DNA from: Physcia stellaris | Taxonomy: Eukaryota > Ascomycota > Lecanoromycetes > Caliciales > Physciaceae | Direction of reading: 5' to 3' | Length of the DNA stretch: 64,000 bases | NCBI GenBank assembly: GCA_018902385.1 | Contig: JABSSW010000083.1 | Location: forward strand, 1-64,000 | Shown: piece by piece, positions 1-53,109 of the stretch | Numbering within the stretch: the first letter of the stretch is position 1 | Layout of the letters: the number at the start of each line of letters is the position of its first letter | Translations under genes and position numbers: made by a program | Notes under the pieces: generated by a model | Seen by the model: the letters and a program-made list of their open reading frames with translations, nothing else | Database searches by the model: none | Told to the model about the DNA's origin: nothing

Positions 1-3000
1 AATTGTATCGTCGTTCACAAAAACGAAATCAAAATGATTTGATCTAAAACGTTTAAAAAAATCGATCGAAGACGACGAACATCTTTTCAATTGTGTTACG
101 AAAAAAATCGAATGTATTGATCAATTGCTAAAAATATTCAGACGATAAATCAACCGATCAATTTTCTCGATGATAATGAAAAACTCGACAAATTGTTGAT
201 CATACTTTTTGCTGATAATTGAAAATATATTGTAATTTTTGTATAGTTTGATGAACGCGACATCTTTTTGTTTCATGAACATAAATTCATGCTTTTTGTC
301 ATAATGAAACTTAACATTCATTTGATCAAAAATTATGACATCATTAACATTTTGACGAGTGATAAAGCGACGCTTCTTTAACGAGAATTCAGAAATGACG
401 ACAGACTTGATCAAATCAATGACTTGAACTAAAATAAAATCATAAACGATTTCATTTGAAAAGCTGTCAGCACTAACTGAATTGTTGAAGTCTCGTTGCA
501 CATGCGACAAGACTTCAAATCAAAAATCAAAATATTTTAACGTAAAAATTAGAAAGCGAAAAGCGATTTCAACGATTTGATTGATTCGCTCGAACAAATC
601 ATCAATTTGAAAATGATAAACAGCTGAATACAAAAATTTAATTTCTAAACGAATAAACATGACGATTCACATGTTCGATAGAAACTTTCTGTCACGATTC
701 GAAATAATAGCTTTAGATAATTCTCAATCAGTCATATTTAGACGATTTAACAAGACATAATCTCATTGTACAACTGTTCATGTGTTTTTGTTTGAAACTA
801 GCACTATGCGCTTAAAATATTTACAATTAATCGACATCACGCAATCGAATTGATCGACTCGTGATCTTGATAAAATCAAAATGAAATCGATAGTGATAAT
901 GTGAAAAAAAATATTCGATGTGAATATAAATTGTAACGAATCATAAAATTTGTGACGACGTGTCTGATATGTCTAACACTTAAAACAATGTTTAAAAAAA
1001 TCTTTTAAATATTTGAACAAATCGCGAATGTAATAAGAAATTGCTATTTTGTCGTAACAGCGAACAAAATCTGAATGATTATCATCGTGAGCAGCGACGA
1101 GAATGTTCTGAATAGCTGACTGAAATATGCAAAAACGATGAAATTCATAAACGTGATTATCAGTGATGTAATCATCAAAACGAAAAATTAACTCGTTTTC
1201 TCGATAAAAAGAAAGCTTGACGACGTTCACGTCGTTCTTGTTTTGCTGATCAAGCACTGAAAATATCTTTTTTCAATTTAAATCAATGTTGTAATCAGCA
1301 ACAAGTTTCTGACGAAAATTTTCTTTCATTTTCACTAGAGCAACAGTGAATAAAGCATTCAGTTCATCTTTTTCGAAAATTGTGTCGATATTGATATTGA
1401 CTAAACGTGAAAAAACGTCAAACACAATATGCTGTTTGTTTGACTTGTGACGCAACTCGATTTCGAAACGTTGAATATAATCGAAAATTTTGATGAGACG
1501 TAAATTAAATTTATCAATGAAAACAATAATGAAATTTGTTTGTTTAGTTAATTTCAAAGTCGCATCGTGATTCGTGAAAATGACAATAAAACGTTGCTCG
1601 AAAAAGTCGACTAAATGTTTTATTTTCTTAAGCACTCAAATTATGTCGATTAGTTTCAACTCAATCGATCAATATCTGATTTCGACGTCGATTAAAAATC
1701 GATTGAAAAACAAAATGAACTCGATAAATTTGCGAAATAAATATTCTTTGTCATTTCAATTAACATTGTTTTTGACATGATAAATCATGTCAACTAATTC
1801 GAACTTTTTGCTAAAATCAAAATTCACGAAAAGCTTTTTAGCGAAATTCGAATGAACAAAATAAAAAAATTTGATCAATAATGATTGCAAAGTTTGAAAA
1901 AAAGCTATTTTTTCAAATGTAAAATTTTTGATTCTGATATTGCGAAAATAAATTTTTCTGACATTGTCAACTACAGATTCGTCGTGAAATAGCTCAATCT
2001 TCAACTGTTGTAATGACTTGAATATTTCGACGTATCACGACACGTAATCACGTAATCAGCTCGTAAATTCTAAATACGTTTCGAATAACTGAAATGTGAT
2101 AAAAAAAAACAAACGTGAAATAGTTTTGAGCTTTTTTCTCAATTGTGATTAATTCAAATGAATCGACTTTTTGATCAAACAAATGAACAATGAAATAATC
2201 GATGAAGATTTTTTCGAACTTGATCGATATGTTGTTAACTCGTAACATGTCGAATATTTTCGTGAAATGTGCGAAATGTTCTTGCAAAATGCTAAAATGA
2301 ATGACAATGTCGTTCACATAAATTTTAGCGAAAATTCGATAAAGTCGAAAAAATCGATCGATTTGACGTTGCACATACGTTGACGAATTCTTGTAATTCA
2401 TCACAATTACATTGAAACTTTCTTGATCGCGATGCGTGATCACAATTAACTTATGTCTATTTTCTGAATGAATTCTTCATTGATAGAAAAAAGTCGAGCA
2501 ATTCAACACGATGATGTATTGACAATCGATAACAGCAAAAATAATGTTGAACTGTAAAAATAAAAAATAGACGTCTGATTGAGTGATAACATTAAAATCG
2601 CGAATATTTACAATCGAGCGATTTTTCTTCTGATCATTAATTTCTTTTCATACGCAAAAGACAGAATAACTAAAAAAAGTAAATTCGTCTGTTCAGTTAA
2701 ATCTGTCTGATTCGTGCAATTTGTCGAAAATTTCATCGACGAACTCTTTATTTTTTTTATTTAATAAATATATTTTAGTCTTGTCAGATATTCTTTGTTT
2801 TCAGTTTGATTTAAGCGAAATTCTCATTCAGTTTTTTTGAGAAAGTTGAGCGAAATCGATGTGAAAATTTTAACAACAAAAGCTGTCTTGTAATCGACAA
2901 AACAGCTGAAACGTCGAGAAACTTTTGTTGATAATTTTCTGTAAATTGACGAAATTGATAATTTAACTGAAACTGATAAATTGAATTTCTATATTGATAT

Positions 3001-5173
3001 GAATTGTAGTTCGAAAACGATCACATATACGCTTGATTAAAATGAGAAAAACTGACGTAAAACTGCTGATTAAAATCGTTTTTACTTCGATTTTGTTTAC
3101 TTGAACGATTGTTAAATCGATCAACATTGTTGCTGAAATCTTGATCAAAATTGTCACGATGACGAATTGTCATATTCATTCACACGTTTTCTTTCGCGTC
3201 TAGCTGACTCAAGAAAATAGACAAAATGATGTTTTTCGATGATTCAAGTATTTGTGCACGAAAATTCAACTCGAGATTGCTTCATGCAATAATACATTGA
3301 TGAAAAATTGATGAAAAATTTGCTGTTTTAGCATGTCGAAGAATGTTTTGCATGTAAAAGCGTGACTTGCGATCACGACGAACATCGACATAAATATAAA
3401 TTTCGATTTGTAACTTTTTCAAAACAATTGAAATTCGCTTTTTGAAACGTTTAATGAAATGAGCACATCAGCGTTCAATGCTAATCTTTCGAAAAAAATC
3501 TTTTTCGATTTTCGTAAACTTCGTGTTATATCAAGTCAATGCATTTTTTTTAAAGCAAGTAACTATTAACTTCTTCACTTTAGAATCAGAGAACGTTTTT
3601 TCAAATTCTTCAAATAATCGATGAAAATGAAAACGTCACGATAGAAATTGTGTCTTTTTGAATTAACAATGAGTTGATTTGTGTCGAACGAATCTTCATA
3701 ATCAAAATCAAAGTAGTTCACATTCTCAACAAATTTGATAATTGACTGAAAAATGTTATTGTCAACAAAAGAAAATGTTTCATTAACAGAACGAAATATT
3801 GAAACGAAAACGATAATTACGATCATAATGTCATCTTAAAAGATTTGATCAATTTCAAATAATGATTGAGTTGAAAACATGATGCGACGAATTTTTTCGA
3901 TTTGAGTGAAAAAAGACGTCTGACTATTGAAAAAAGATGTCTGATTATTGTCAGTTTGAACGTTGATTGAGCGACGTTCACTGTTCGTAATATTTGACTC
4001 GACGATAGATTGACGTGAAATGTTCAAATCGAAATCAGAATTAGTAATTGACGAGTAACTAGAAACTATTGGCGAGAAAATAAATTCACGAATTTCTGAA
4101 TTGTTATTTTGTCGAAACTTTGAGCTAATAAAAGTTTCGAACTGAATAATTGTAAGAATTTCGAATCGAATGAAAATATCTAGTTTAAATACGAAAGATT
4201 GCTCACTCGAAAGTTGTACACGAGATATTAACGAGAACGATGAGTTGTTTGTAATTGAACTAGTTATCAACTCGAATTTAACTGAGAAGCTTCGAAAAAC
4301 GTTCGATTGACGAAAATCGACAATATCGATTCGAAACTGATTCAACGCGTTTTGCAATGAAATAACGTCGTCAGCTCATTGAAATGAATAAACAACGTTT
4401 TGAGCTCGTGTTCTAAATGATTTGTAATTTTTAACAGTGAGAATCTCGACTGTACGCCGATCTAAATTGCTAAACAATGAAATGAAAAAATGATCGATTT
4501 GCAGAAATTCGTGCAGCGATCAAGCAAACTGAATAGTTTGATTAGAAATTGAAATCAAAATGCCGAAGAAATAGAAAAATGTCTGAAATTGTCTTTCTAA
4601 TCAATGATAAAATGTAACGACAATACTGAATAGCAAAAAGAAACACGATGTTGAAAAGTTGTCTGATGTCACGAATTTCAAAAATGAGACAACGAACGTA
4701 AATGAAAAAAGAGAAAAATGAAAAAAAAATCCGAATCAGAGCAAAAATTCAGTAAGATTTGAATTCACTTTTGCGAACAGATGCGAAACTGACAGATGCG
4801 AAATGACTAAAGCGAATGACGCAATGTCTTTGATTCAACGCAGCGATGAGACAAAAACACATCGAAAAAGAAAAAAACTTGTTTGATGAAATGCTGACAT
4901 ACAGTTAAATAGACAGATTTTTGATTGCAATGTTAGCTGAATGACTAACAATGTTGATTTTGATGATGTGATAAATGATGCTATCAGATTGTTGATGTAT
5001 TGAATGTAAAAAACTTGATTAACTATTTAGAAAATCAATGATCAAATATATATCATAGTAATTACATAAGTCAAGTCATTCAATTGACTAAATGTCAGTT
5101 GATTGATTGAATGCTAAATACAGAAAGTTTGTTTGACTGTTTTCGAGTTCTAGTCACATGTCAATTCATAACA
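1..5173 (-). mobile_element. Ty3/gypsy chromovirus fossil, family A, left-truncated by the window
   Basis: Minus-strand LTR retroelement. Its 5' LTR is at 4990-5173 and the body runs leftwards off the window. Recognisable parts, from high to low coordinate, are a gag-like region (about 3.6-4.4 kb), reverse transcriptase (about 2.0-2.4 kb), RNase H (about 1.3-1.6 kb), the zinc-binding part of integrase (about 1.0-1.25 kb) and the integrase C-terminal region (about 0.1-0.5 kb). The same parts occur in the same order in the complete copy at 45294-53104, which shows it is the same family; position 1 here matches roughly 46,072 there, so about 0.8 kb lies outside the window. The copy is broken many times over, is shorter inside than its sister, and is heavily hypermutated: GG and CC are almost absent. 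Confidence 0.9.
4990..5173 (-). repeat. 5' LTR of the truncated family A element
   Basis: About 184 bp, beginning TGTTGATGTATTG and ending TTCATAACA on the plus strand. It aligns along its length with the LTRs at 45294-45485 and 52913-53104. In the part compared, the substitutions are C/T or G/A changes in CpT or CpC context. The five bases to its right (AAAAT) are the candidate target-site duplication; the partner would lie outside the window. Confidence 0.9.
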
Positions 5174-7052: not shown

Positions 7053-7057
7053 TTAAT

Positions 7058-7377
7058 TGTAAGAAACTCAGAATTCAAGATCTGCGGAACGGATTTCGCC
7101 TGCGAAATGAATTCGTCAAGAATTCAAATCAAACAGATTCGAAACATCAAGTCGATTATATCATGAAATCAGCAATTTCGTCATATTAATAAAATCAACG
7201 CAACAACGATTATCGCATCGATATTTGCGCATATGCGACAATTGATGTGTACGTTGCATTTAACAAAACGTGTATATAATAAATTTTTTGAAAGATAATT
7301 AGTTTTGCAATTATTAATTTAGAAACTATTTTGTTTTTTGCTATACATTTCTGATGTCACACTTCTTGAGTCTTACA
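7058..7377 (+). repeat. 5' LTR of family B element
   Basis: 320 bp with TG...CA termini, immediately preceded by TTAAT. It aligns without gaps to 13265-13584 with about 20 differences, all transitions in CpT or CpC context. Confidence 0.93.
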
Positions 7378-10300
7378 TTCTAATAACTATTATAATCATC
7401 AGATTAGCATCATTCGTGTATACAGCATGTTCGTCTTTTCTTTTTACAGCGCTTCATCGAGTTCGACGATGAATTTGTTCTTGATTCGTCAAGATCAAAT
7501 GTCATCGCGAGAAAGTATCGAGCATATATAGAACAACAACATGTTCGATACGAAGCACTACGAAACGCATTCAATTTTTCAATCGTTCAAACAATTGTCT
7601 TTAAAAAAAAACTTTTCTATATCAAGATAATGAAAAACAAGCTCGATTTATTCTCGAAAAACAACTATGCAAAATGAATTCAATACGTTTGAAAAATGAA
7701 AAATCAATTCGACATGAATCAAATGAACGATTATGCGAAAAATTCTGATAAAATTAAGCTTTTCTTTGTTGTCATCTTTTTGAAAAAAGAATCTAACGCA
7801 CAGTTGCTATGAAACGTCAAGACAAAAAACAGTTCTGATCAAAACTATACATGAAAAAAATATGTCGACTTTTTCAAAAAAAATATCAAAGAAGCTTTCA
7901 TCAGAAAGAAGAATAATTTCGAAAAATACAAAAATTACAAGCAATTAACTTATCAGTCAATAAAAAATTATGACGCATATCGCATCGCTTTGATTTCAAA
8001 TTTACATTCATTCATGAAATTTTCATCAGCAATAGAGTTGCAGAATTTCGTATTAAATTTCACGCAAAATAATCAGAACTTTCTGATCGAACAAAGTATT
8101 GAAAACGATAAAAATTTGATTTTGAAGCGTCTCAAACAACGAAAAGACAACGAGCGTAAAAAGCAACGAAATATCAGCAAAAATAAACTTGCGAACGATT
8201 TCAACAAGCGCAAGAAAAACGACGAAAATTCTGATGCAAACGAAAACGATAATCAAAATCAATTCAACAAAAATCGAAAAAAAAATCGAAAAAACGATAA
8301 GAAATTCAAGTTCAATAATTCTAATCGAAAATCAATTAAAAATAAAAAACTATGACGTTGAATCAAGATCGAATACAAAAATATTCGAAATAACAACAAA
8401 TGCATCGATTGCGATAAATTCGAATGCAATATCGACGACTGCAAAAACATCAAATCGAATACACATTCGTTTGAAAAAGTTTTTCGTGAATCGAAATCAA
8501 AAAAGTAATCGATTTGATGATTTTCAATCAAATTGACACAAAAAAAAACTCAATATCAAACGAACATATCGATTTTAATCATAATGAATTTTTTGCGACT
8601 GATATCGAAATCAAAAGCGTCAAACGTCGTCGTCGAAAATTTCGCATGATTAAGTGTAAAAAAACAATGATCAAAGTGAACAAAAAATTCGACGAGAAAA
8701 GCAAATTGAAATTCGAAATCGTCATGAATTTTGAAACAGAAATCAGTTTGATAAATCATATTTTTGTTAAACAATTTGAATTAGAATTTTTCAACGTATC
8801 AAATTGCGAAATCGTGACTATAGAAAATCATTCATTTAAGAATTATGAAATCTATTTCGTGCAATTCGAAATACAAGACGAGAACGACGTTAGTCGCTTT
8901 TTCAACGACAACTTTCTAAAAATTGATTTGGCATGAAATATGACGTTGAATTTATTTTGAATACAATTATCGAAAATCAAAATGAATTGAAATATCGACA
9001 AAATCGAATCGTGATCACTAACTGTAAAATCAATTCTTTTCACAACAAATCGTATTGAGAAAATCGAATTCGAAAAACTAATCAACGCAATCGTGAATGA
9101 CAAAAAAAAATTTTCATCATGTTCGTACGAGTCACTCGTGACGAGAAAAAAAACATAAATAACGTACATATCGAACGACGAGCACAAATCGATTTTGTTC
9201 TCACGAAAATCAAAAATAAGTCAGATATCAAAATCATCATTTTCGAAATTTTGAAAGAATTCGTTGATTTGACAAATGAGAACAAAACATACGAATTATT
9301 TGATCATGAATCAAACGATCATGCAATAAATTTGAAATTTGACAAAAAATTTTCGTATGATTTTATCTACTCGTTGTCAAAAAACGAACTCAAAATATTG
9401 CGAACGTATTTGAATAAACATTTCAAAAACGAATTTATTCGACTTTTCATTTTTTCGATCGACGCATTCATTCTGTTCGTCAAAAAAAAAACGAAACGTT
9501 GAAATTATGTGTGAATTATAAAGATTTTAATTTTTTAACGATCAAAAATAAATATTTTTTATTGTTGATCGATGAAAGTCTCGATCGTTTGAACAAAATT
9601 CGCATTTATACGAATCTTGATATGATAGCGACATACAATCGACTTCGTATTAGAAAAAATGATGAATAAAAAACAGCGTTTAGAACACGATATGAACATT
9701 TTGAATATATCGTTTTATTTTTTGATTTCATTAATGTATTTGCAACGTTTCAAAACTTTGTCAACAAAATTTTAGCGAAACGACTCGATTTTTGCGTCAT
9801 AATATATCTGAACGATATCGTCATTTACTTTATGAATCGAAAACAGCATATCGAAAACGTCAAATGAATTTTTCAACGTTTGAAAAAACACAAGCTTTTC
9901 ATCAATATCGATAAATGCAAATGATTCACGAACAATATCGACTTTCTGAATTTCGTCGTCTTTTCAAAGAAAATGCAAATGCAAAAAGACAAAATTGAAG
10001 CAATACAAAACTGATCGACTTCAAAAAACGTGTCAGAAATTCTGAGATTTTTGAGATTGTGTAATTTCTACAAACGATTCATTAAGAATTTCAATAAGCT
10101 AACATTATTTCTGATCGTTATGCTAAAAAAATCAGCAAAACTTCACAAAAAAAAAACAAAAAAAAACGCAATCAAAGCAAAAGTCGAAATCGCAACAAAC
10201 TATTGAACGAATTTTTGATTTCTGAAGTTTTCAAAACTTTTAAACGTTTACGAAAAGCATTTTTAGAAACATTTATTTTACAGCATTTCGATTCGACTAA

Positions 10301-13264
10301 ATTTATTCGTGTAGAAATCGACGCTTCAAATAAAGCAATAAACGAAATTTTCGATCAATCAAATGACAAAAATCATTGACATTTCGTAATTTACTTTTCA
10401 AAAAAAATGATTTCAACGAAATATAATTATGAAATTCACGACAAAAAATTTTTGATCATAGTTTTCGCATTCAAACAATGACGTCATTATTTTGAAAAAA
10501 CAAAAAAGCAAATTTTCGTTCTGACGAATCATCGAAATTTCAGTCGTTTCATGATTACAACGAAATTAACATTTCGACAAGTTCGATGAACACAAAAATT
10601 ATCACGTTACAACTTTGTGATCGATTATCGTTTCGACAATAAAAATTTTGCGAACGACTTGTCAAAACGATTTGATCATATAACGATCATCGAAAAAAAA
10701 ATTGAAAATAATCGTCAGATTCTGACGCGTTTACGACAATTTTTGCGAACAAACTCGAACGAGTTTCAAATTTGCGTGAACGAAGTCAAAACGTCGCTCA
10801 TGTTCGATGAAAATGAAAAAAACAATTTTACGAATGATTTTTTTGACGTTTTCGATGAAAAATCAAACGTGATTATCGATGAATGAAAAACAATAATATT
10901 GAATAATGCAACGATTTTCGAATCGATCATCGAAATGATTGCGCGAAAACATATTCACGAACATGATGCAACATATGACGATAAAATCATTGACAATTTT
11001 GTCGAATTGATTCGTTCGTTGTTAGAACAAAATTCGTGCGCAATTCAAATGAAACAAAAATTAATTACTTTTGAGAAATCACATTCGCATTGACACGACG
11101 AAAAAAAAGTATTGTGACACGAAAAATGCTTGTACGTTTCGTCGAATTTGAGAAAAAACGTCATTAAAGCAAATCATGACAACTTTTTCGTTGATCATTT
11201 CGAAATAAAACGTATTCTCGAATTGATACGCAAAAAATATTACTGATTCAATCAAGAAAAAAGCGATTTCGAAAAAGACGTCGAGCATGATTCAAACATG
11301 CGTATTCAAATAAAAAAATATTGCGAAACATGCGCAATTTGCAAAAAAAACAAAGCATTTCGACATAAATCATATGAAAAATTTTCGTCTTTTTTCATAT
11401 CGAAATTCAAATGAGTTGACATTACAATGAATTTCGTGACAAGTTTATCAGAAAACAAAGCATGAAATGAGACAACGTATGATTCGATATTCGTTGTTGT
11501 AAATCGTTTGACGAAAATGACACATTACATCTCAATCACGAAAACGATGATCGCAAAAAATCTCGCTGAAATACTGATTCGAAAAATCATAAAATTTCAT
11601 GATTTTTCGTCGTCAATAACAACAGACAGAAACTCAATTTTTACTTCGAAATATCATGATGCATTATGTTACGTTCTCAAGATAAAACTCAAGTTGTTCA
11701 CGACTTATCATTTTCAAACAGATGATCAGACGAAGCGTCAAAACTCAATCATGAAGCAATATTTCAAAATTTTCGTCAACTTTCAACAAAATGACTGAAT
11801 GAAATTACTGTCGATGATTGAATTTGTTTACAACAACAATAAACATGCGTTCACGCAAATGTTTTCATTTGAAACAATGCAAAAATATACATCAAAAATG
11901 TTCTTTGAAAAATTTGCGAATTTCAAAACTAAATCAAAATTTGCAAAGAAACATGTCGAAGAACTGATCGCGCTGATGAAAATACTAAAAATCAATTTAA
12001 CATACGCACAAAAACAACAGACTAAATACAAAAATACAAAAACGAAATCAATGAATTTCGACGTCGAAATTTACGTCAACGTCAACGACAAAAATATACG
12101 CATCAAACGAAACAAAAAGCTGAAATGAAAATTTTTCGAATCGTTCAAAATACTCGAAACAATAGAAAATCAAGCATATCGACTTGAAATATTCAAACGT
12201 TGACGAATTCACGATGTCTTTCACGTTTCGTTGCTTGAAAAAATTATATCTAAAAGAAAAAAAAAAATTCCGCTAAAATTCACGTATCAATCAAACGATA
12301 TTGACATCGAAAACGACGACGAACTCACAAAAAAAAAGTTTTGAATCGAAATCATTCTTGACAGCAAAGTCTACAAAAAAAATCAAATTTCTGATAAATC
12401 ATACAATGAGTCAAAACTTTATTATCTTGTGCAATGAAAAAATTACGAAAAACGTATTTGAAAATCAATTGCAATGATCAAATATTTACGAAATATGCTG
12501 CGAAAGTTTCATGCGAAAAATTCGAAAAAAAACGATGCAAATAAAATCACTAATCGTCGACGCGTTCGACGTCAAATAAATGTAATTTTTATCGTGAAAT
12601 CGTTGACAAGAAAATCTACTTTTCACATTTGATTCGATGTTGTTTACTGTCTAAAACTTACGACGCATGAAAAATTGAATCGTGTCAAAAACATTTTCAA
12701 AGATTGTTGCTCGATCTGACTGAACGATGAATATGTGAATGTGAAATAAGAAAATCGAAAAGATTTCGAATTCGATATATTCAATGCGATCGTGATTACG
12801 ACGTCTTTTGCGTTTAATCATTTTTTTCAATCAATTCATGACTTCGACGTACGGAATAAAAAAATAAAAAAATAAAGAATGATTCAAATTCAAAACTCAC
12901 TGTCATTCAATTAGCTGTCAATCATCAAATCGAAAACTGTGAATTGTACGAAATCAGACTCTCGATTCTGAAAACAGCAAATAATGAAATCGTCAGATCA
13001 TGCTTTTTCTGAATCATCGAAAAAAGTGTATTCAGATTTTTAACGCAAACTGATTAAAAATCGAAATGAAATATATTCGATGCGAAAATCACGATTACAG
13101 TGATTTTTCAAATCAACAAATTTCTGAGTGCGAAAATCGCGATTACAGCGATTCTTCAAATCAAGAACATGAAACATATTTACACAAATCAGAAATCTTT
13201 GTTGCAAAACATACGAAAAAATGTTGATCATCTCAAAAGACTTCGATGCTAAAAAAAAAGCGCG

Positions 13265-13584
13265 TGTAAGAAATTCAGAATTCAAGATTTGCGAAACGAA
13301 TTTCGTTTGCGAAATGAATTCGCCAAAAATTCAAATCAAACAAATTCGAAACATCAAATCGATTATATCATGAAATCAGCAATTTCGTCATATTAATAAA
13401 ATCAGCGCAACAACGATTATCGCATCGATACTTGCGCATATGCGACAATTGATGTGTACGTTGCATTTAGCAAAACGTGTATATAATAAATTTTTTGAAA
13501 AATAATTAATTCTGCAATTATTAGTTTAGAAACTATTTTGTCTTCTGTTATACATTTCTGATGTCACACTTCTTGAGTCTTACA
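13265..13584 (+). repeat. 3' LTR of family B element
   Basis: 320 bp with TG...CA termini, immediately followed by TTAAT, the second half of the target-site duplication. Same length as the left LTR and no indels between the two. Confidence 0.93.
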
Positions 13585-13589
13585 TTAAT

Positions 13590-28774: not shown

Positions 28775-29250
28775 CTTCAAGTGCGGATATTTCCTTCCGG
28801 GGGCTTTCCGTTGCCGATTTCGATGATAGCGACCTATAGTGAAATATTTGGTTTTTGCCCGAACACGTACAGACAGTAGCAGCTTTAATTTTAGCTTCTG
28901 AGGAAGGACTATGGAAAAGCTCTTCTCCTTGACCAAAATCCTGGCCTTCTAAGGTAGGGTACCGTATGCGTTCCGTCATCCGTCATTTTCACATGCTCGA
29001 ACGCATCGGACCGTGCTCGGCCCGGCGCTACTTGTATACTCGTACTAGCGCTTACGGCGGCAATACAATCATAAGATGCATATAAACATTATTATTATTC
29101 ACAAGAAGACACTACGGCGACGAATGCATCTTAGACTTATGATCCGCCCGATCTTTTGATCAGAACCGTGAACACTCAGTCCGAGATGCAATTTGTGATC
29201 TCTTGCATCAGAATATTATTCTGCTTCGCCGCCGTCTGGCCATCATAGCC
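28775..29250. promoter_or_regulatory. Bidirectional promoter region HST2/COG4
   Basis: 476 bp between the two divergent start codons, so both promoters must lie here or within the genes. I see no clear TATA box. An ATTATTATTATT-like run lies near 29,088-29,100. Confidence 0.5.
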
Positions 29251-39143: not shown

Positions 39144-39455
39144 AGCGAGAACGGGTACGAAGCTTGCGACAATAGATGAGGGAAAGGGTTGAGGAGTTGA
39201 ATGCAATCTTAGCGCAGGCTTTGCGCGAGTGATGTATAGATCAAGGAAAAGGAGGTGATTTGAGGGAGCGAAGTGTACGAGTAGAAGGAGGTTTGAGACG
39301 CGCCTCCATCCAAGTACGTAGTCTTGAACCCTACCTTTTGTACATGGCTTTAGGGTTAAAGAGGTGCAGTAGAGAAAAGCAAGTGGAACGATGCATTCTC
39401 CCCTCAGACCGACGATCCTGGGCCGTGAGACTCGAATAAACTTGCTAGCGTGACT
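39144..39455. other. Upstream flank of the membrane-protein gene and edge of the gene block
   Basis: Promoter side of the gene at 38366-39143. Ordinary composition ends at about 39,450, where the hypermutated AT-rich block begins. No gene is recognised. Confidence 0.5.
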
Positions 39456-42400
39456 TTTGAAATATAACGTAGAAATTAGTGAAACGTCAAATCGATTCGC
39501 TTTCGAAATTATTACAAATGAATGTTTGCAAATCAACAAAAATTTTTTCTTTTCATATCGATGCAAATTTTTAATTAATGAACAATTCGATGCATTTCGT
39601 TTTTTTTGAATTTTTTTTTCAATCGTTTTTCAAAAATGATTTTTTCAAAAAAAATTTGATCGTCGATTTCATGAAAAATGTTCATTATTCGAAAACATAA
39701 AAAACATGATCAAATTTACGAATATGTTTCATTTTTTATAAATGTTTTTGTTTTTTGTTCATTTTTAATGAAAATATCGTCGCAAAAAAATTTATGCATT
39801 GCGTTGAATAATTGAAATATGTTTTTTCGAAAATTGCGAAATCGCGAAAAAACAATTTCGATAAAATTCATTTTTAATGAACGTTTATTATTGTTGTTCG
39901 TTTTTAATGAATTGTACAAAATCGAATTTTGAAACATTAAACAAAAAAACAAAACATTGTCACTGTGTAACATGCTCGAAAAACAACAAAATACATTTTT
40001 TATAAATAATTTTGAAATGTGTTCATTTTTAACGAAATTTAAATTATGTTTGTGAAAAATCAAAAATCGATTGATTTCAATGATGAAAATTTGTTGTTTT
40101 GTGAACATTTATATGAAATCAATTATTTCATTTTTTATGAACAATTTTTCAAATGATTCATTAAAAATGAAAATGTCAATGTTGAAAAAATGATTCAAAA
40201 ATTTCAAAAAAAAAATCGCGTGTTTTGATTGCAATTCGCAAAAAAAAATTTGTAAAATTTTTGTTCATTATTAATGAACATTGTTTTTTAACGTTCATTT
40301 TTAAAAAAAAAAAATGAAAATAAACGTTTTTTTGAATTTGAAATTCATGAATAAATTGTTCATTTTTCATGAACATTTTTTGATGTTGTTCATTATTAAT
40401 GAATGATATAAATTGAATATAATCAATGTTTTTGAACATTGATTCGAAAATAAATTCATTATTTATGAATTATTTGATTGATCGCTCATTTTTTATGAAA
40501 AATGAATTTTTAAAAAAATGATGTTTCGTCGTGAACGAATTAACGTTGCTATTGACATTGCGAATGTTTATGATAAATATTTTCATTTTTAATGAATACA
40601 AATGCGAAACAAATTGACGATAATTCAAACGATAAAAATGAAAATGATCAAAAAAAAATGAAAAATAATAATTTTGTGAAAATCATTTAAATTTCATTAA
40701 AAATGAACATTATATTGATTTGCTCATTTAAAATGAACATTAAATTTAGATTTTCGACTGAAATGAACACGATTTTTAAAAATCAAAAAAAAAAAAATTT
40801 GATCATTTTTTTTGAAATCTTTTTTCATACGTTCATTTTTTATAAATTTATTTTAAACGCAATTGCAAAATTTTTTACAATAATTACATTTGACGTCGTT
40901 ATTAACGAAAAAATTCATGAAATTTTCTCGTTTATTGACAAAATCGTCATTTCATTTCAACAAATATTTTATTATTGTAAAATTGTCGAAATTCGTGTTT
41001 CAATCATTTCAATCGCATAATTTACGAATAAATCATCGACGTTTATTTATCAAATGTTGAATTTCATTTTGACGAAAAAAATGAATGTCATAATAAATAG
41101 AATCGATATCGATATCGATAAAATTATTGCGAAAATTTTCGAGAAAAACGTCGATTTGTTGATATCAAAATTTCATTAATAATGTAATAAATTCAAAATA
41201 AATAAATTAAAATGAATTGTGTTTATTAAAAATTTATTGTATGTAATCGATTGATCGTAAATATTGAATTCACGAAAAACATATTTTTTGTATTGACGTG
41301 ATATATGAATTCAACGAAACAATAAATGTGTTATATCAAAATGTGAATTTTCTCGATCATGATATAACACAAATAATTTGATTTCTATAACAATCATTCG
41401 TTTTTAATGACAAATTTCTTCAAAAACTCATTATTAATGAAAATATTGAAATTTTACGTATTTTTCAATTGATGTATTTTTTGAAAATTAAAAATAATTT
41501 CAATTTTATTTTTTTCTTTGTTGAATATTTTGATATGATGATATTGTATGCGTAACATTTCGTCAAATCGTAACAAACAAAGAAAAACGATTTCGTACAT
41601 AATTTGCATCATAATACATTGATTACGTTCGTTTCAAATTCGATAATCATCATTATTTTTCTTTGTAAACGTGAAATCAATAAATGAATTCGATTTAATC
41701 GTATCATTGAAATCGAAAAATTCTTCGTAAAATACGAGCATCAATTGAACGCACATTCGTGTTTATTTCATCGAATTGAATTTGATAAACGTTAAAAAAA
41801 AATTCAATATAAATGAGCAATTTTGTCGTAAATTCATTAAAAATGTAATCAATTTTCGAATTGCTTTTCAACGTCAAAGTCAACAAAAATTTCAAAAAAA
41901 TTTAATTTGATACATAATGAGTTTAATGTAAAAAAAAAGATTTTCATTTAAAATGAAACATATAGAAAATAATACATATATAATGAATTATGCGCTCGAA
42001 TTACAATTCAATAAAAAAACAAATAAAAATTTCAAAAAAAATATAACGTGAAAAAAAGTCAAATACTAATAATGATCATTTGAAAAAAACACACATTTAT
42101 AATGAACATTGAAATTATATCAATATAAAAAATGAATTTTTTTTTTTTTTGCAAATTTTTCATGTATCGAAAAATTTGATAAAATATCGATGAATTTTCG
42201 TTTCATGTTTCATTTTTTTCGAAACGAAAATTATTTGTTTCACGATTTTCGTTATATGCGTAATGATAATTAACAACAATTTTCATTTTAAACGCATGAA
42301 ATCAAATACATTCGTTTTTATCATAAATTTTATGAATTCAAATTGCGATATAAACAGAAATTTTGTCATTCGAAATTTTGAAAATTTCAAACGTTAATTG

Positions 42401-45063
42401 TTGACGAAATGCAAATTTTTGAAAAAATTTTCATTGATTAAATGCATTTATAATGAATTAACAAAAATATATCACATTTTTAATGAAATTTATTTTTGAT
42501 AATTATTTCGAGTATTTTTTGTATGAGAAATCGCAAATGTATTATGAACAATTTTTTGCATTGTTTCATATTTAAAGAATGTATCATCAATATTTTTTTG
42601 TAAATCGACAAATTTTAAATCAATATTGATTTCGTTTATAGAAAATTTTCGATTAATATTGTTCGTTGTCGATAAATTTTTCGAATTCAAATAAACAAAT
42701 TGTTGTTTCAAAAATTGAAACATATCACAAAATGAAATAACAATTTGATTTCAATGAATATATATTAAAATTATTCAATAATATTGACAATGTTAATGAT
42801 GAACAAATGATTGAAATCGAAAAATCATTAAATTTTTTTGTACAATTTTATTGCATTTGATTCGTTTAAATTTCAAAAATTTTACACAATTATCAACACA
42901 TTATCAACGAATTCAATTATATTGTAATTCAATCAAACATGTCTCGAAATTCAAAAAAAAACAAACAACGAACAAATGTTAAAAAAATTCAAAATTTACG
43001 AATTCATACAAAACAATATTTCAATATCAACGAAAATGTTGAAAATGACAAACGATTATCGAAAAAACAACAACAATTTTTGAAATAAATTGATGAATAT
43101 CACGCACAAAATGAATTCATTTTAAAAAAAATTGAACAAAGATAATCGTCAAATGAACATCAAAAAATTGCACGAAAAATATGAATTATCAAACAAAATA
43201 TTACGTTAATAATGAAATTTATTAATATAAATATCAATTTTGATGTCGTTTTTTCAATCGATATTTTTTAAAATGTTTTCACGAAAAACGAACGTTTCGT
43301 CATTACGTTCACAAAAAATGAATCATTTATCAATGTTTTTGTATCAAAATTTTTCACGATTTCATTTTCAAATTTCGTTAAAAATGTATCAATTTTCATT
43401 TTTCAAATTACATTTACATTTTATTTTCAACATTACGTTTTTTTTTTCAAATTTCGAATTCAAACATCATTTTGAACGAAAACGTACAAAATGTCATTAA
43501 AAATGTTGTCGTCGATAAAATTGATAAATTTATTTTTTCGTTATTTATGAAGCAAATTTTTTTTTTCGTTCAAAACGAAAAGTAAAAAAAATAATTCATT
43601 AAAAAGAAAATTTTTGTTCATGCAAAATATCAAAATTGCATATTTTTTGAAAAATGTTTCAATTTTTAATATATCAAATTTTGCACGAAATGTTTCACAA
43701 TTATTCGACGAATGAAACAAATTCGATATATTTGTTATACGCGAAATATTCATATTTTTACGTTATTGAAATGAAATTTATCGACAAAAATCGATCATTT
43801 GAAAAGTTTTGAAAAAATTTTACAACGATTGAAAAATACGTTTTTAATGAATTCATCAATCAATTTTTCGTTAAAAGTGTATGAACGTTCAAATTTTTTA
43901 TATTTAACGAAATTTGTGTTTTTCGCGTTAAATTTATTTGAAATTTTTGTGAATTTCATCGTCGAAATACAAATTAAAAACTGTTTTTATTAAAAATGAA
44001 TTCATCGTTTTTTTTTTTTTTTTTTTTTTTATGAATTTTGTTTCGTTTTTTTTCACAAAATTAAATTAGAAATTCGAAATTTTTTCTTTATGAAAATGTT
44101 TCATTAAATATAAAGAAATTTTCATAATGTTTATATTAAATGTCATGTGTTTTAAAAACGTTAAATTTGTTTAAAATTTTTCAATTTTTTTCGTTGAAAT
44201 ACAAATTAAATATGTCATTCATTTTAAATGAATTTATTTTCAAACATTACATTTATAATGAATTTTTTTGACTTTTTTTTTTACAGATGATTATTCAAAA
44301 ATTTTAAAAATTTTCGAATCGTGATGCGTTTTGAACGTTTCATACGACAATAAATAAAAAAAAAAAAATTTCGATTTTTTATTTACACGAAAATTATAAA
44401 ATCTATTCGTCAAAATCGAAAATTATTGAATGAAAAACATTCAACAAAAACGAAAAAATGTTTATCGACGAGCAATGAAATAAACATTTTAATTACAAAA
44501 ATCGAAAAAATTCGTTATTACAATAATGATAATGCAATTGTTCGTATTTATTGTAAACATATTCATCAATTTACAATGTGAAATTTTGAAAAAAAAAATA
44601 ACGTGAAAAAAAATAACGTCGAAAAAAATAATGCGAAAAAAAATCATTGACAATGTATGATACAAAATTTTGCGAATTTTTGTAAATTTTCTCGACGTTT
44701 CGATGTTTTTTTTCATTTTCAATGAACATTACACATAAAAAAATTATTGATAATGTATGATACAAAATTTTGCGAATTTTTGTAAATTTTTTCGACGTTT
44801 CGATGTTTTTTTTTCATTTTCAATGAACATTACACATAAAAAAATCATTGATAATGTATGATACAAAATTTTGCGAATTTTTGTAAATTTTTTCGACGTT
44901 TCGATGTTTTTTTTTTTTCATTTTCAATGAACATTACACATAATTTAAATTAACGTGTATTGAATTTTGCGCAATTTTTTTGAAATTTTTTAATTTTTGT
45001 TCATTAAAAACAAGTTTGTTCGTGAATTTTTTCAAAAAAATTTCATGCAAAGCTTCAGAATTA
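39456..45063. repeat. AT-rich block studded with a short palindrome
   Basis: About 5.6 kb of AT-rich DNA without a recognisable gene or element. A 15-bp imperfect palindrome, TTCATT-WWW-AATGAA, and close variants recur some 25 times at irregular spacing, for example at 39758-39772, about 39867-39881, 40262-40280, 40386-40402, 40692-40708 and 40722-40738. Open frames here are low-complexity and end within 110 codons. It may be a decayed repeat array or a non-autonomous element cluster. Confidence 0.55.
44641..44943. repeat. Tandem repeat, three units of about 100 bp
   Basis: Units start at about 44641, 44741 and 44842. Each runs from ATTGAyAATGTATGATACAA through TTTTGCGAATTTTTGTAA and CGACGTTTCGATG to CATTTTCAATGAACATTACA. 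The units differ at only a few positions, again C/T, and in the length of one T run. Each contains a copy of the CATTTTCAATGAAC palindrome. Confidence 0.85.
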
Positions 45064-45260
45064 GAACTAATTTGCATATCAACAAACACAATTTTGACAA
45101 CGAAATAATTTTCAAAGTTTCAAAACTATTGCGATCATGAATCGATTTTTGTCATTTTTGCAACATTGAAATGCGCTTATCTTGCTTTACAATTGTAGCT
45201 AGATAAGTGAAAATTATATGAAATGAATGTTTGATGTGCAAGTTGCGAAACATCTGTACG
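45064..45260 (+). repeat. Dispersed repeat, copy 1
   Basis: About 200 bp lying just left of the family A insertion. It matches 54325-54500 in the same orientation, including AACTATTGCGAT, TTGAAATGCG, TTGCTTTA and GTTTGATGT; a shorter third copy begins near 54,680. Unclassified. Confidence 0.6.
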
Positions 45261-45293
45261 AACGCATTGCATTTTTTGATGATTGATCGAAAT

Positions 45294-45485
45294 TGTTGAT
45301 GTATTGGATGTAAGAAGCTTAATTAGTTATTTAGAAGTCAATGGCCAGATATATATCATAGTAATTACATAAGTCAAGTCACTCAGTTGACTGAATGTCA
45401 ATTGATTGACTAAGTGCTAGATACAGAAAGTCTGTCTATTCATCTGACAATCTTCAAATCCTAATCATAATGCCAATTCATAACA
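45294..45485 (-). repeat. 3' LTR of complete family A element
   Basis: 192 bp with TG...CA termini, preceded by GAAAT. It aligns without gaps to 52913-53104 with about 24 differences, all transitions in CpT or CpC context. Confidence 0.93.
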
Positions 45486-48400
45486 ATCTGTTTCAATAAA
45501 AAGAAGTTAGCATTCGACCCGATGCTATTCATAGTCATACTATCATTCATACTTCATATCCATATCATATCTCTCAGCTGAATCGAGGAAAGCGACGAAT
45601 CAGAACGTTGAAAAATTCGACGATGTTAAAGAAATTCGTAGCTTGATCAGCTGATTTGGTTAGCGAAATTGAAATGACGACGAAGCTAGCTAACGAAATC
45701 TTAAACGAAATGACAACGGCAAAGCTCTGCTTAGAAAGTAAAATAGCTTGCGAAATTGACTCGAAATATTTTGAGAATATTGCTTTAACTGAGAAAATCG
45801 ATGACATTGATGATCTTTCTTTAATTCTCGAAGTTGACGTTGTTGATGATGATGAAACTGACGATGATAAGACTAGTCAATCTGATAAAATAGTTTGATT
45901 CATAGTTGTTTCGTAGTCATTGACTAGATTCGTGACATTTTCGAGTTCTGAAAGATTTCGTCATATATCATGTTTTGATTCGTAATCTTTTCACTCAACA
46001 AGATACTTAACGCCTCGCTTCTTGATTATGCGCTTGTTGATGATGCGTGACAATTCAAAGAATTTGACGTTAGTTGTATCGTCGTTCACGAAGACGGAAT
46101 CAAAATGATTTGATTTAGATCGTTTGAAAAAATCAGCCGATGAAAACGGGCATTTTTTCAGTTGAATTACGCTGAAAACCGGATGAATAAATCAGTTGCT
46201 GGAAATATTCAGTCGATAGATCAGACGATCAATTTTCTCGATGATAGTGAAAGATTCAACGAATTGTTGGTCATATTTCTTGCTGATAGTCGAAAATATA
46301 TTATAGTTTTTGTGTAGTTTGATGAGCGCGACATTTTCTTGTTTCATGAACATAGATTGATGTTTTTTGTCATAGTGAAATTTAGCATTTATTTGATCAA
46401 AGATTATGACATCATTAGCATCTTAACGAGTGATAAAACGGCGTTTCTTTAGCGTGAATTCGAAGATATCGACGTCGATAAACTTAGTCAAATCAGTGAT
46501 TTGAATTGAAATAAAGTCATAGACGATTTCATTTGGAAAATTGTCAATGTTAGTTGAATTGTTGAAGTTTCGTTGTACTTGCGACAAAACGTTAGGTCAG
46601 AGGTCAGAATATTTCAGCGTAAAAATCAGAAAACGAAAGACGATTTCAACGGTTTGATTAATTCGTTCCGACAAGTCGTCCGTTTGAGAATGATAAATAG
46701 CTGAATACAAGAGTTTAATTTCTAGTTTGATAAACATGACAATTCACATGTTCGATAGAAACTTTCTGTCACGATTCGAGATAATAGTTTTAGGTAATTT
46801 CCAATCAGTCATATCTAGACGATTTAGCAAGACATGATTTCATTGCGCAATTGTTCATGTGTTTTTGTTTGAAACTAGCACTATACGCTTGAAATATTTA
46901 CAGCTAATCGGCATCACGCAGTCGAATTGATCGATTCGTGACTTTGATAGAGTCAAAATGAAATCGATAGTAATAGTGTGAAAGAGAATATTCGAAGTGA
47001 ATATAGATTGCAGTGAATCATAGAATTTGTGCCGACGTGTTTGATATGTTTGACATTTCGGACAGTGCTTAAGAAAATTTTTGAGATATTTGAACAAGTC
47101 ACGAATGTAGTAGAAAGTTGCTATTTTCTCATAGCAACGAACGAAATTTGAATGACTATCATCGTGAGCGACGATTAGAATATTCTGAATAGTTGAGTGA
47201 GATATGCACAGTCGATGAGATTCGTAAACGTGATTGTCAGTGATGAAATTATCAAATCGAAAAATTAGTTCATTAATCTCCCGATAAAAAGAAAGCTTGA
47301 CGACGTTCTCGTCGTTTTTATTTTGTTGATTTAGCATTGAGCATATTTTTTTTCAATTCAGATCGCTGATGTAATTTGCGACAAGTTTTTTGCGAAAATT
47401 TTTTTCAATTTTCACTAAAACTGTCGTGAAAAGAGTATCGAGCTCGTTTTTTTCGAGTGTTACGTCAGTATTGAAGCTGACTAAACGAGAAAGAGCGTCA
47501 GGCACAATGTGTTGCTTGTTCGATTTGTGACGCAGTTCGACGTCGAATCGTTGAATATAGTCAAAAGCGCGAACAAGTCGAAAATTGAGCTTGTCAGTGA
47601 AAGTTGTAGTCATGCTGATCTGTTTAGTTATGCCTAGAGTCGCGTCATGATTCGTGAAAATGATAGTGAAACGCTGCTTCGAGAAGTCGATTAAATGTTT
47701 TATTTTTTTTAGCATTCAGATTATATCAGCGAACTCTAGTTCGATGAATCAGTATTTTGTTTTCGCGTTCGTTAGAAGTCGACTAAAAAACAAAATAGAT
47801 TCGATAGTTTTTTAGGCGAATATTTTTTATCATTTCATTTGACGCTATTTTTCACATGATATATCATGTCAATTAGTTCAAATTTCTTGTTAGCATCGAG
47901 GTCGACGTATAGTTTTTTACGAAAATCCGAATGAACGAGATAGAAAGACTTAGCTAGCAGAGATTGTAATGTTTGAAAGAAAATTAACTCTTCAATAGTG
48001 AAATTTTTAATTCTAGTGTTGCGTGAGTAGATTTTTCTGACATTGTCAGTTACAGATTCGTCGTGAAGTAGTTCAGTCTTCAGTTTTTGAAGCGATTTGA
48101 ACATTTCAACGTATCAAGGTACATAATTTCGTAGTCAGTTCGTGAGATTCAAATACGTTTTCAGCAGTTGCAAAATAATAAAAAAAAACAAGCGTGAAAT
48201 AGTTTTCAGCTTTTTCTCAGCGATGGTTAGTTCAAGAAAGTCAATCTTCTGATTTAGCAAGTGAACAGTGAGGTAATCAATGAAAGTTTTTTTCGATTTG
48301 ATAGAAATGTTGTTAATTTTGAGCATATCGAAGATTTGCTTGAAATGAGTTAAATGTTTTTGTAAAATGTTTGAGTGAACGACGATATCGTTTACATATG

Positions 48401-51400
48401 TTTTAGCGAAAGCTCGAAACGATCGAAACAATCGATCGATTTGACGTTGTACGTAAACAGAAAAATTTTTGTAATTTATCACAGTTACGTTGAAACTTTC
48501 TTGATTTTTATGTGTGATCACAGTCAGTTTATGTTTGTCGTCTGAATGAATTTTTCATTGATAAAAAAAAGCTGAACAATTCAGCACAATAATGTATTGA
48601 CATTTTAAAACAGCTGAAATTATGTCGGATTGAAGAGATAAAGAATACACATTCGATTGAATGATAGCGTTGAGATTTCGAATATTTACAACAGATCGAT
48701 TTTTTTTTTTGTCGTTGATTTTTTTTCATACACAAAACACAAAATAATTAAATGAAATAAATTCGTCGATTCAATTAAGTTTATTTGATTCATGTAGTTT
48801 GTCAAAAGTTTCGTCGACAAGTTTTTTATTTTTTTTGTTTAAAAAGTATATTTTAGTTTTGTCAGGTATTTTTTGCTTTCAGTTCGACTTGAGCGAAATT
48901 CTCATTCAGTTTTTCTGAGATAGCTTGACAAAGTTTGTGTTTTTTCAAATATTTGAATAGATTGACATCAGTTTTGTGATAATTTGCACGACATCGTCGC
49001 TAGATCGATGAATGATGACGTCATTATCAAAAATGATTTTTGTCGAAAGCTTCAGGTCAGTTTTTGGCTTCGCATTTTTCAAGTTTGAAATAGTTGAAGT
49101 TTCGCTTGTGAAAACTAAAAATTGGAAGTCGTTATAACAAGTTGGCGAAAACTGAACATCTAATTTTGAAAAAGTTTGACGTTGCGACAGAATCGAATTG
49201 TGAAAAATTTTCGAAGCTGCGATTGTAACGGCGATAGTTTCAAAAATAAAAAGGTTATTATCATTCAGCACGTTGATGACGACGTAGATCGCGACGATGA
49301 TTTTCTTGAATCAGTTAGTTTTATGTTTTTGAGCAAAACGTCGTAGAGTTAAATCGACGACGTGGCTAGTTTCGTCGACGTGAATTTGAAAAACATTGAT
49401 GTAGTTTATTTCGATTATGTGATCGACGCGATAATTTCGAGATATATGAACGGTTTGATTGTTTTCATTGCGAACGATAATTTGCTTAATATTGAAGTTT
49501 ATTAAGTGAACGTAAAGTGAGAGTTTCAGCTCATTCGACTCAAAAAAATAATCTCGATCGGATGAGACAGTCGTATAGTGCATTGGAAGAACTAGCTCGA
49601 AACGAAAAAATATTACAGTGATTTTACGAGCATGAATCGAAGTTTGAATAGCTATTTTAGACGTTCGAATTTTTAAATTAGCGATAATTTCACAGTTTTC
49701 GATGTAAGTTGTTTTTTTAAATATGCTAACATCGATTTTTTTTGATTCAATAACGTCATTGTTCAGTAGCATGTTAGTCTTGAGATTGTCGATCAAATGA
49801 ATTTTTTTGATGATTTTAGTTCTAATTGTGACGTCATTTTTTTGGTCAGAAAAGTACATAGATAGAATAGCATACTCGGTTGTCATGTGCTTGTCGACAT
49901 TTAGTTCACGTATTGAAATGAATGTAGTCATGATTTTAATAGACACATCCGAAGCTTGTTTCTTGAAGAATTGACGATCACAAAAAGTTATTTCAGCGTC
50001 GGTGTCTAAACACATAGATTCGGCATCAGCTGTAGAAAATAAAACTACATGAATACGTGCATAGTTTCAGTCTCGAAAGTCATGATCAGTGTCGACGTTT
50101 TTGTTGAAGTCGACGTCTGAAACAATGATGAGAATCGATGCAGATTTAGTTTTTTCAGGAAAATCGAAATGAGCATTTGTGAGAGATTTTGACGTTTTTG
50201 ATACAATAGTTGAGTCAGAATCGATGATTTCGATTCTCGATTGCGTGATAGATGAGTTCGTAAGTTCGTCTGACTTTGAAGTTGTCAGAAGTTTTCTAGT
50301 TGAATTTCGAATAATCACACTAATGCTTTGAGTAGTCATAATAATAGAAGAGAATTGATTAGATACATTTGCTGAATAAATCAAGCTAGTTTTGTCAAAA
50401 CAGTCGAAACGAAGATGTTCGTGTAATTTATTGTTGAAGAAAAAGTCATTGTTACACTTTTTGCAGATAGTTATCTTATTCGATTTTGACAAAAGCATTT
50501 TTGACGTGATCAAATAGACAGCGTTGTCATTTTCGTTTTCGAAATCGTTGTAAGAAATTGATTGATAATATGAAATATTTTTTGAAACATGATAGTCGTC
50601 AGCATTCTTTTCGTCAAAATAGTTTTTTTCAGCTTTTTCAGCTTCGTTATTCTCGTCAACGTTGTAGATTTTAGTCTTGTCAGACTTGTCAAATCTTCTG
50701 ACGTTTGGCTTGTTGAACTTCTGATTCGAAACGAATTCGCTTGAGAATTTTAGCAGAAGAGGTTGTCTTGCAGTCGACAAGACAGTTGAAAATGAATCGA
50801 AAGGTTTTTGCTGATAGTTTTTTGAAAATTGACGAGACTGATAACTTGATTGAGATTGATAAGCTGAATTTCTATACTGATATGAGTTGTAGCCCGAAAG
50901 CGATCACATATACGCTTGATTTGAATAGAAAAGATTGGCGTAGGATTGTTGATTAGAATCGTCTCTATCTCGATTTTGCTTATTTGGTCGATTAGATCGA
51001 TCAGCATTATTACTGGAATCTGAGTTGCTAGCTTGATCGCGATGACGAGTTGTCATATTCATTCATACATTTTTTTTCGCATTCAGCTGATTCAAAAATG
51101 TAGTCAAAGTGATATTTTCGAACGGTTCGGAAATTTGAGCTCGAAAGTTCAGTTCGAGATTATTTCAGACAATGATACATTGATGAAATATTGATGGAAA
51201 GTTTGCAGTTTTGACATGTCGAAAAATATTTTGCATGTAAGTTCGAGATTTGCGTTCTCGACGAGCGTCGACATAAATGTAGTTTTCGATTTGTAGTTTT
51301 TTCAGAACAGTCGACGTTCGTTTTTTGAATCGCTTGATGAAATGAGTGCATCAGCGTTCAATACTGATTTTTCGAAAAAAGTTTTTTTCAATTTCAATTA

Positions 51401-52912
51401 GTTTCGCGTTATATCAGGTTAAGGCATCGTTTTTTAGACAGATAGACATCAGCTTCTTGATTTTAAGACCGGATGAGATTTTTTTCAGATTTTTAAGATG
51501 ATCAGTAAAAATGAAAACGTTTCGATAAAAGTTGTGTCGATCAGAGTTGACAATGAATTGATTTGTGCCGATTGAATTTTCATAGTCAGAATCAAAGTAG
51601 TTCACATTTTCGACAGATTTGAAAGCTGATTGTAAAATATTGTTGACAGCAGAAGATGTTTCAGTTGCGAATCGAGACATCGAAACGAACGCGATAGTCA
51701 CGATCATGATGTCATTTCACAAAGCTTGATTCATTCCAGTTGACGGCGGAATTATTGAAGACATGTTGCGACGAATTTTTTCGATCTGAGTGAAAAAAAA
51801 TGTCTGACTATTGTCAGTCTGAATGCTGACTGAGCGACGTTCACTGTTCGTGATATCTGACTCGACAATAAACTGACGAGAAACGTTTAGGTCAAAATCA
51901 GAATTAGTGATGAGCGAGTAGCTAGAAACTATTGACGAGAAGGTAAAATCACGGATTTCTGAATTGCTATTTCGTCGAAATCTTGAGTTAATAGAAACTT
52001 CAGACTGAATAGCTGTAGGAATTTCGAATCGGATAGAAGTATCGAGTCTGGATACGAGAGATTGCTCATTCGGAAGCTGTACACGAAATACTGAAAATGA
52101 CGACGAACTGTTAACAGACGAACTAGTTACGATTTCGAGTCTAGTTGAGAAGCTTCGAAAGACGTTCGATTGTCGAAAATCGACAATGTCGATTCGAAAT
52201 TGATTCAAGGCGTTTTGCAATGAGACAACGTCGTCAATTCATTGAAATGAGTAGACAGCGTCGTGAGCTCGTGTTCTAGAAAATTTGTAGGTTTTAGCAA
52301 TGAGAATCTCAATCGTACGTCTATTTTCGTTGCTGAGCAGTGAACTGAAAAAATGGTCAGTTTGCAGAAATTCGTGTATCGATCACGCAAGCTGAGTAAT
52401 CTGATTAGAAACTGAAGTCAAAATGCCGAAAAGGTGTTAAGAAAGTGTCTGAGATTGTCTTTCTAGTCAGTGGTAGAATGTAGAAGACTTTTTAGACTAG
52501 TCGGAAAATTTTTTCAGTCATAGAAAGTTTGCGGCAGAAAGCAGATACAAATCAAAAAAATGTAGTAATAGCTTATTGCAAAAAGAACAGTCTGATATCA
52601 AGAGATGACTCCAAAACGAGACAACGAACGTAGGTGAAAAAAAGAAAAAACTGAAAAAAAAGAAAATTCAAATAGATGAGATTTGGCTTCACTCAACGAA
52701 AAGATGCGAAATTGGCAGGTTACATCGATGACGAATCAAATGCTTCGATTGATGACGTAGTTAGTCTGACTCGACGCAGCGATAATGCAATGAAGCACAT
52801 CGAAAAGAAAGACTGTCTTGATGATGAGATAGTACAAGTTGACTGATTTCTGATTGCTGCTAGCTATAGCTAGCGAACTGATTTGATGATGTGGTAGATG
52901 ATGCTATCAGAT

Positions 52913-53104
52913 TGTTGATGTATTGGGTGTAAGAAGCTTAATTAGCTATTTAGGAATCAATGACCAGATATATATCATAGTAATTACATAAGTCAAGTCA
53001 TTCAGTTGATTGAGTGTCAGTTGATTGATTAGATGTTAAGTACAGGAAGTTTGTCTATTCATCTGACAGCCTCCAAGTTCTAGTCATAATGTCAATTCAT
53101 AACA
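52913..53104 (-). repeat. 5' LTR of complete family A element
   Basis: 192 bp with TG...CA termini, followed by GAAAT, the partner target-site duplication. It is the same family as 4990-5173. Confidence 0.93.
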
Positions 53105-53109
53105 GAAAT

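Follow-up and report, generated by a model that had tools for sequence, protein, structure and literature searches.

A 64,000-nucleotide stretch of the genome of Physcia stellaris, hereafter the window, carries a retroelement whose two long terminal repeats (LTRs) differ from each other only by transitions at cytosines followed by a pyrimidine (CpY). We analysed this element in the context of an assembly of 43.97 Mb in 147 contigs, in which the window lies within contig C83 (105,801 bases). Physcia stellaris is a lichen-forming fungus of the Caliciales (Physciaceae), and its published assembly amounts to 46.57 Mb in 196 contigs (PMC7513301). The 5' LTR (7058..7377, + strand) and the 3' LTR (13265..13584, + strand), each of 320 bp in the LTR alignment, both have the termini TGTAAG...CTTACA, and the target-site duplication TTAAT flanks the element at 7053..7057 and 13585..13589. 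The element contains a decayed reverse transcriptase (RVT_1; 9499..9954, + strand), interrupted by two TGA codons and one TAA codon. The LTRs of one element are identical at insertion. The TTAAT flanks and the matching termini therefore mark one complete insertion, whose LTRs were initially identical.

The two LTRs align without a gap over 320 bp and show 20 differences, all of them transitions, ten C/T and ten G/A. The original prediction, made from the letters alone, had described no indels and about 20 substitutions, half of each kind, and these figures turned out to be exact. With the C or G state taken as original, 16 changes lie at CpT and four at CpC, and none of the 44 CpA or 32 CpG sites has changed, just as had been estimated by hand. 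Altogether, 20 of the 31 CpY sites were altered versus 0 of the 76 sites with a 3' purine (Fisher P = 3.5e-14). The C or G state is retained in the 5' LTR at 12 of the differing sites and in the 3' LTR at eight, so that each LTR must have been mutated after insertion. Chance can be ruled out as the source of this bias because nine pooled LTR pairs, a second repeat family and the sampled AT-rich DNA all show it as well.

Copies, composition and coding frames across the genome

A genome search with the LTR, in which 40 of 296 candidates were scored, located it at 40 or more places, and 28 of the 40 were aligned. Nine pairs that share a contig and lie about 6.2 kb from each other, including that of the window, were each treated as one element, the target-site duplication having been verified for just one of the nine, the window pair. 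In the pooled pairs, changes affected 9 of 9 CpC, 138 of 187 CpT, 29 of 387 CpA and 16 of 315.5 CpG sites, with transversions at 42 of 2,861 sites. The pair on contig C9, with 18 transversions and nine CpA, nine CpG and six CpT changes, looks much older than the others. Across 378 pairwise comparisons of the 28 LTR rows, 71-91% of the CpT sites differ in every identity class. CpA and CpG sites differ in 7% and 3% of cases in the closest class (identity of at least 93%) and both in 22-32% in the classes below 87%, while transversions rise from 0.9% of sites in the closest class to 5-7% in the classes below 87%. Since the CpA and CpG differences climb alongside the transversions, the share of changes outside CpY tracks age. 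We relied on these pairwise counts by identity because column counts on 28 rows are blurred, a single diverged row being enough to render a column polymorphic; columns without any changed row numbered 13 for CpA, 20 for CpG and none for either CpT or CpC.

An independent test of specificity came from a 1-kb piece of a second repeat family (50501..51500, + strand), which occurs at 17 places in the genome. Six other copies were compared with it, five elsewhere and one inside the window, the last being an older copy with 76% identity (2851..3610, + strand). Of the two closest copies, one (L056) differs over 999 sites by 108 transitions and a single gap, with no transversions, and its changed sites are 16 of 16 CpC, 88 of 130 CpT, 4 of 122 CpA and 0 of 104 CpG. 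The other (L058), covering part of the piece, shows 99 transitions and no transversions over 799 sites, with changes at 16 of 16 CpC, 77 of 99 CpT, 6 of 97 CpA and 0 of 84 CpG. Both strands were hit (C>T 42 and G>A 66 in L056; 37 and 62 in L058), and the base 5' of the mutated cytosine has little influence. The four remaining copies are older, with 15-35 transversions and more numerous CpA and CpG changes. Between close copies, then, transitions at CpA are rarer than those at CpT and CpC, and transversions and indels are rare, whereas CpA changes, CpG changes and transversions are all higher between old copies.

The bias also shapes the composition of the genome at large. Twenty random 10-kb stretches, all on contigs C1-C10, were divided into 200 one-kb bins, about a quarter of which (51) have a guanine-cytosine (GC) content below 40%. 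In the 26 bins below 25% GC, 5,927 cytosines on both strands comprise 2,921 CpA, 2,896 CpG, 108 CpT and two CpC; in the 141 gene-rich bins above 45% GC, 70,444 cytosines comprise 19,220 CpA, 15,124 CpG, 18,883 CpT and 17,217 CpC. Expressed as density per kb relative to gene-rich DNA, the most AT-rich bins (mean GC 22.8%) retain 0.001 of CpC, 0.03 of CpT, 0.82 of CpA and 1.04 of CpG. As GC drops, the loss of CpC precedes that of CpT: the observed/expected ratio of CpC is 0.34 at 35-40% GC, 0.09 at 30-35%, 0.06 at 25-30% and 0.00 below 25%, and that of CpT is 0.75, 0.39, 0.28 and 0.05 in the same classes. TpA is depleted in the most AT-rich bins, with a ratio of 0.44. The usual indices of repeat-induced point mutation (RIP), which are built on CpA-to-TpA change, therefore score the Physcia repeats as free of RIP: TpA/ApT is 0.46 and (CpA+TpG)/(ApC+GpT) is 1.42 in the AT-rich bins, against thresholds of 0.89 and 1.03 (PMC3897900), so that this DNA is called RIP-negative.

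A CpY-only exchange of C for T would spare CAA, CAG and CGA as sources of stop codons, because their C precedes A or G, and would leave TGG to TGA, by way of CpC on the opposite strand, as the sole route to a stop. We tallied stop types within profile matches in P. stellaris alone, scoring 150 of 527 RVT_1 candidates. As predicted, TGA predominates, with 341 of the 388 stops inside RVT_1, DDE_1 and DDE_3 matches, beside 42 TAA and five TAG. The 150 RVT_1 matches contributed 250 TGA, 33 TAA and three TAG, the ten DDE_1 rows 44 TGA and three TAA, and the 23 DDE_3 rows 47 TGA, six TAA and two TAG; one DDE_1 and two DDE_3 rows are free of stops. Ten of the 150 RVT_1 matches are also stop-free, some with frames of more than 800 amino acids, and represent copies or retained genes that are apparently unmutated. 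The original prediction of a CpY target in place of the CpA target of Neurospora holds for close copies of two families and for the sampled AT-rich DNA. The kinds of stop codon seen in the frames of retroelements and DNA transposons are consistent with it. Its restriction to CpT and CpC is exact for the window pair; its word "strictly" is better softened to "almost strictly", given a weak share of CpA elsewhere.

The mutations are confined to repeats as far as the window and a small copy-number test reach. A heavily mutated AT-rich block at 39424..45305 (5,882 bp; 18-23% GC in most 500-bp steps) contains not a single CC or GG, retains CpA and CpG, and has a sharp left border to gene-rich DNA. 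It is followed by a milder mutated repeat block at 45306..55300 (ends approximate; 27-40% GC per 500 bp), where CC is low and CT partly kept. This second block is apparently a younger arrival, since its CpY loss is milder than in the neighbouring repeats; the second-family test piece lies within it. CpC and CpT are normal in the gene-rich parts of the window and at three methyltransferase loci. In searches with one-kb pieces, those taken from two stretches with about 22.5% GC had 52 and 24 match rows, self included; a piece taken from GC-rich DNA matched itself and one further segment of 85 bp. Transposon families are mutated and gene-rich DNA is spared, and in this small test both AT-rich pieces are multi-copy and the GC-rich piece is, over its full length, single-copy.

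The proposed mechanism and its rivals

The repeats of P. stellaris have undergone C-to-T change on both strands that depends on a 3' pyrimidine, is free of transversions between the closest copies, and has exhausted CpC and CpT almost completely; several kinds of transposons are affected, and gene-rich DNA is not. Change from C:G to T:A on both strands with few other changes, restricted to repeated DNA as far as the small test reaches, accords with RIP in the broad sense. The CpA preference of canonical RIP is absent (CpA 0/44 in the LTR pair, 4/122 and 6/97 in the second family; TpA depleted). The target preference is CpC >= CpT >> CpA > CpG, which nearly reverses the published order in Neurospora crassa, CpA>CpT>CpG>CpC (PMC5496416), and this RIP-like system extends from the window to the sampled genome. 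We consider it likely, judging from the sequence patterns, that the repeats were mutated by a RIP-like process in which a RID- or DIM-2-type C5-cytosine methyltransferase would be directed at CpY. For the enzyme and the timing we infer that such a methyltransferase would act in duplicated DNA on cytosines with a 3' pyrimidine on both strands and that the targeted cytosines would become thymine. Homology would serve as the trigger, the activity would fall in the sexual phase, and either a RID-family enzyme or DIM-2 would set the specificity. Physcia stellaris is sexual, as the sequenced culture was raised from ascospores (PMC7513301).

Several observations weigh against this reading. Between close copies of the second family, 3-6% of the CpA sites have changed, as have 7.5% in the pooled LTR pairs, and in the 28-row LTR alignment 35 CpA and 18 CpG columns contain at least one changed row. 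Stops other than TGA also occur, 42 of them TAA and five TAG. The dependence on repeats was gauged from just two AT-rich pieces, and the canonical RID of Physcia, compared by eye with that of Usnea, has a similar-looking recognition domain with no striking difference.

A slow decay of methylated CpY in repeats, with no burst mutator, might be favoured by the presence of a DIM-2-like enzyme. Between the two closest second-family copies, however, 104 of 146 CpY sites have changed versus 0 of 104 CpG and 4 of 122 CpA sites, with no transversion over 999 sites, and the decay at CpY would need to exceed the background rate by orders of magnitude; we regard this explanation as improbable. Decay of methylated CpG is rejected by the CpG density ratio of 1.04 and the 0 of 104 CpG sites changed. 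It could also be argued that ordinary CpA-directed RIP had already exhausted CpA and left only CpT to differ, as CpT dominates in alignments of Neurospora Tad1 (PMC2621366) and in control sets from RIP-capable fungi (PMC7882544). A CpT signature alone is for this reason not new. Yet the most AT-rich DNA is still well supplied with CpA (2,921 of 5,927 cytosines, at 0.82 of its gene-rich density) and TpA is depleted rather than enriched (0.44 observed/expected), and the retained CpA and low TpA refute exhausted-CpA RIP and leave it practically no weight.

Editing of retroelement complementary DNA by an APOBEC-like deaminase would equally produce C-to-T and G-to-A changes without transversions. 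Such an activity should depend on the 5' base and favour one strand, but here the 3' base is decisive and the 5' base hardly matters, the strands are about equally mutated (10:10; 42:66; 37:62), and the frames of DNA transposons (DDE_1, DDE_3) likewise carry almost only TGA stops; editing is rejected as very improbable. The assembly is a hybrid of nanopore and Illumina reads of about 30x each (PMC7513301), and a nanopore artefact at modified bases might be suspected. An effect that sets the composition in 51 of 200 bins (<40% GC), varies by copy and shapes coding frames leaves that suspicion almost no probability. The explanation left standing is a process that is directed at repeats, acts in a burst-like manner and takes its specificity from the 3' base: RIP except for its target.

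Physcia shares with Neurospora the both-strand C-to-T change in repeats, the AT-rich relics, and homologues of RID and DIM-2, but Neurospora favours CpA most and CpC least. Trichoderma reesei mutates CpA and CpG about equally, ahead of CpT and CpC (PMC5496416), and crosses of Zymoseptoria tritici yielded 240 of 242 mutations at CpA and two at CpT (PMC10294615). C-to-T change in duplicated DNA is common to these two fungi and Physcia, although it was seen there in crosses and is led by CpA and CpG in the one and by CpA in the other, rather than by CpY. In Botrytis, Sclerotinia and Magnaporthe, which have a RID/Masc1 gene, a CpT signature stands beside CpA (PMC4352252). The CpT target is thus in common with Physcia, but CpT accompanies CpA there and no CpC signature is named, whereas Physcia leaves CpA almost untouched and has lost CpC most severely. 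In Anisogramma, CpA and CpT are affected (PMC10998396). Among lichen fungi, repeats of Endocarpon pusillum have canonical RIP indices of 1.47 and 0.70 (PMC3897900), and those of Cladonia rangiformis, for which RID and DIM-2 homologues are reported, have 10-20% GC with a peak near 16% (PMC12542154). Both resemble Physcia in having decayed AT-rich repeats. The repeat GC of C. rangiformis (about 16%) lies below the mean of the most AT-rich Physcia bins (22.8%), which suggests that CpA is targeted there too and hints that target specificity has changed within the Lecanoromycetes.

Badet and Croll (2025, PMC12543289), who surveyed 1,239 fungi, concluded that a preference for CpA is common to RIP-like defences; their 130 species with strong recent signatures belong to four classes, Lecanoromycetes not among them. 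No RIP analysis is given in the consulted portion of the Physcia genome paper (PMC7513301). Loss of CpC and CpT with retention of CpA and CpG was not found in the literature searched, whose coverage left out most subscription papers. The 2011 survey of RIP in ascomycetes by Clutterbuck may include related cases. Physcia shows that a near reversal of the target dinucleotide can occur, and genomes of this kind are easily overlooked.

Candidate methyltransferases and neighbouring features

A PF00145 profile search of the genome returned four matches at three loci, on contigs C5, C6 and C3, and both RID and DIM-2 homologues, for which the original prediction had advised looking, are present with their catalytic motifs kept. 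The gene on contig C5 (1,184,035 bases) is a canonical RID of 932 amino acids (P0001) with PPCQ and EQT motifs. It matches Physcia stellaris G7Y79_00005g016670 with 97% identity over 98% of the searched part, and in the tree its protein sits among RID proteins from Heterodermia and further lichen fungi. The DIM-2-like gene on contig C3 has PF00145 and DUF7893, a BAH match below the cut-off, and ENV in motif VI. A second RID-like gene lies on contig C6 at about 790,900-792,590 and has PPCQ and EET motifs; by manual reading, its open frame crosses two introns and reaches QIGNAVPP and a stop codon. Its closest database relatives have 60-94% identity, one of them named (Heterodermia), and the next at most 48%. 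A 37-row tree places it in a 15-row clade (support 100/98) with one named member, Heterodermia P0128, apart from the contig C5 type; because the branches of this tree are long and its root is weak, this separation is the sole claim taken from it.

EQT and EET are triads of the RID/Masc1 group, and the Botrytis form is EET (PMC6709928). Because Botrytis shows a CpT signature beside CpA, the C6 gene might weakly be put forward as the first candidate for the CpY enzyme, ahead of those on contigs C5 and C3. EET also occurs in proteins of Aspergillus, Penicillium and Lecanora and in P0159 and P0160, two unnamed members of the contig C5-type clade, which weakens this case; the triad was unread in 7 of 36 database rows. 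A bolder and rather doubtful proposal is that in Physcia and its kin the EET enzyme of the C6 type is dedicated to CpY-targeting RIP, the mutational alphabets of RIP being enzyme-specific. If true, such an enzyme would close reading frames through tryptophan codons only (TGG to TGA) and leave CpA and CpG intact. A shift of target in such enzymes is plausible, given that a bacterial C5 methyltransferase turned from CG to mostly CC once its recognition domain carried one deletion and three substitutions (PMC10899764). RIP of native repeats in Neurospora uses both RID and DIM-2 (PMC11969663), and as of 2008 methyltransferase activity had not been demonstrated for RID and Masc1 (PMC2432034). Because this one fungus has a divergent RID-like enzyme as well as a canonical RID, it offers a system for finding out what recognises the base 3' of the target cytosine.

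A further RID-like clade, distinct from both Physcia types, is found in Lecanora helva and Haloplaca (P0161, P0167, P0171, P0173 and P0180), and RID-like genes thus seem to have been duplicated repeatedly in lichen fungi. An Rfam scan of the window returned no match at gathering scores. The GC-rich part of the window contains ordinary fungal genes whose translations suggest a sirtuin-like protein (27679-28362, - strand), a COG4-like protein (29203-31779, + strand), a SUA5-like protein (32066-33460, + strand), and a Tae2/NEMF-like protein (33528-36914, - strand).

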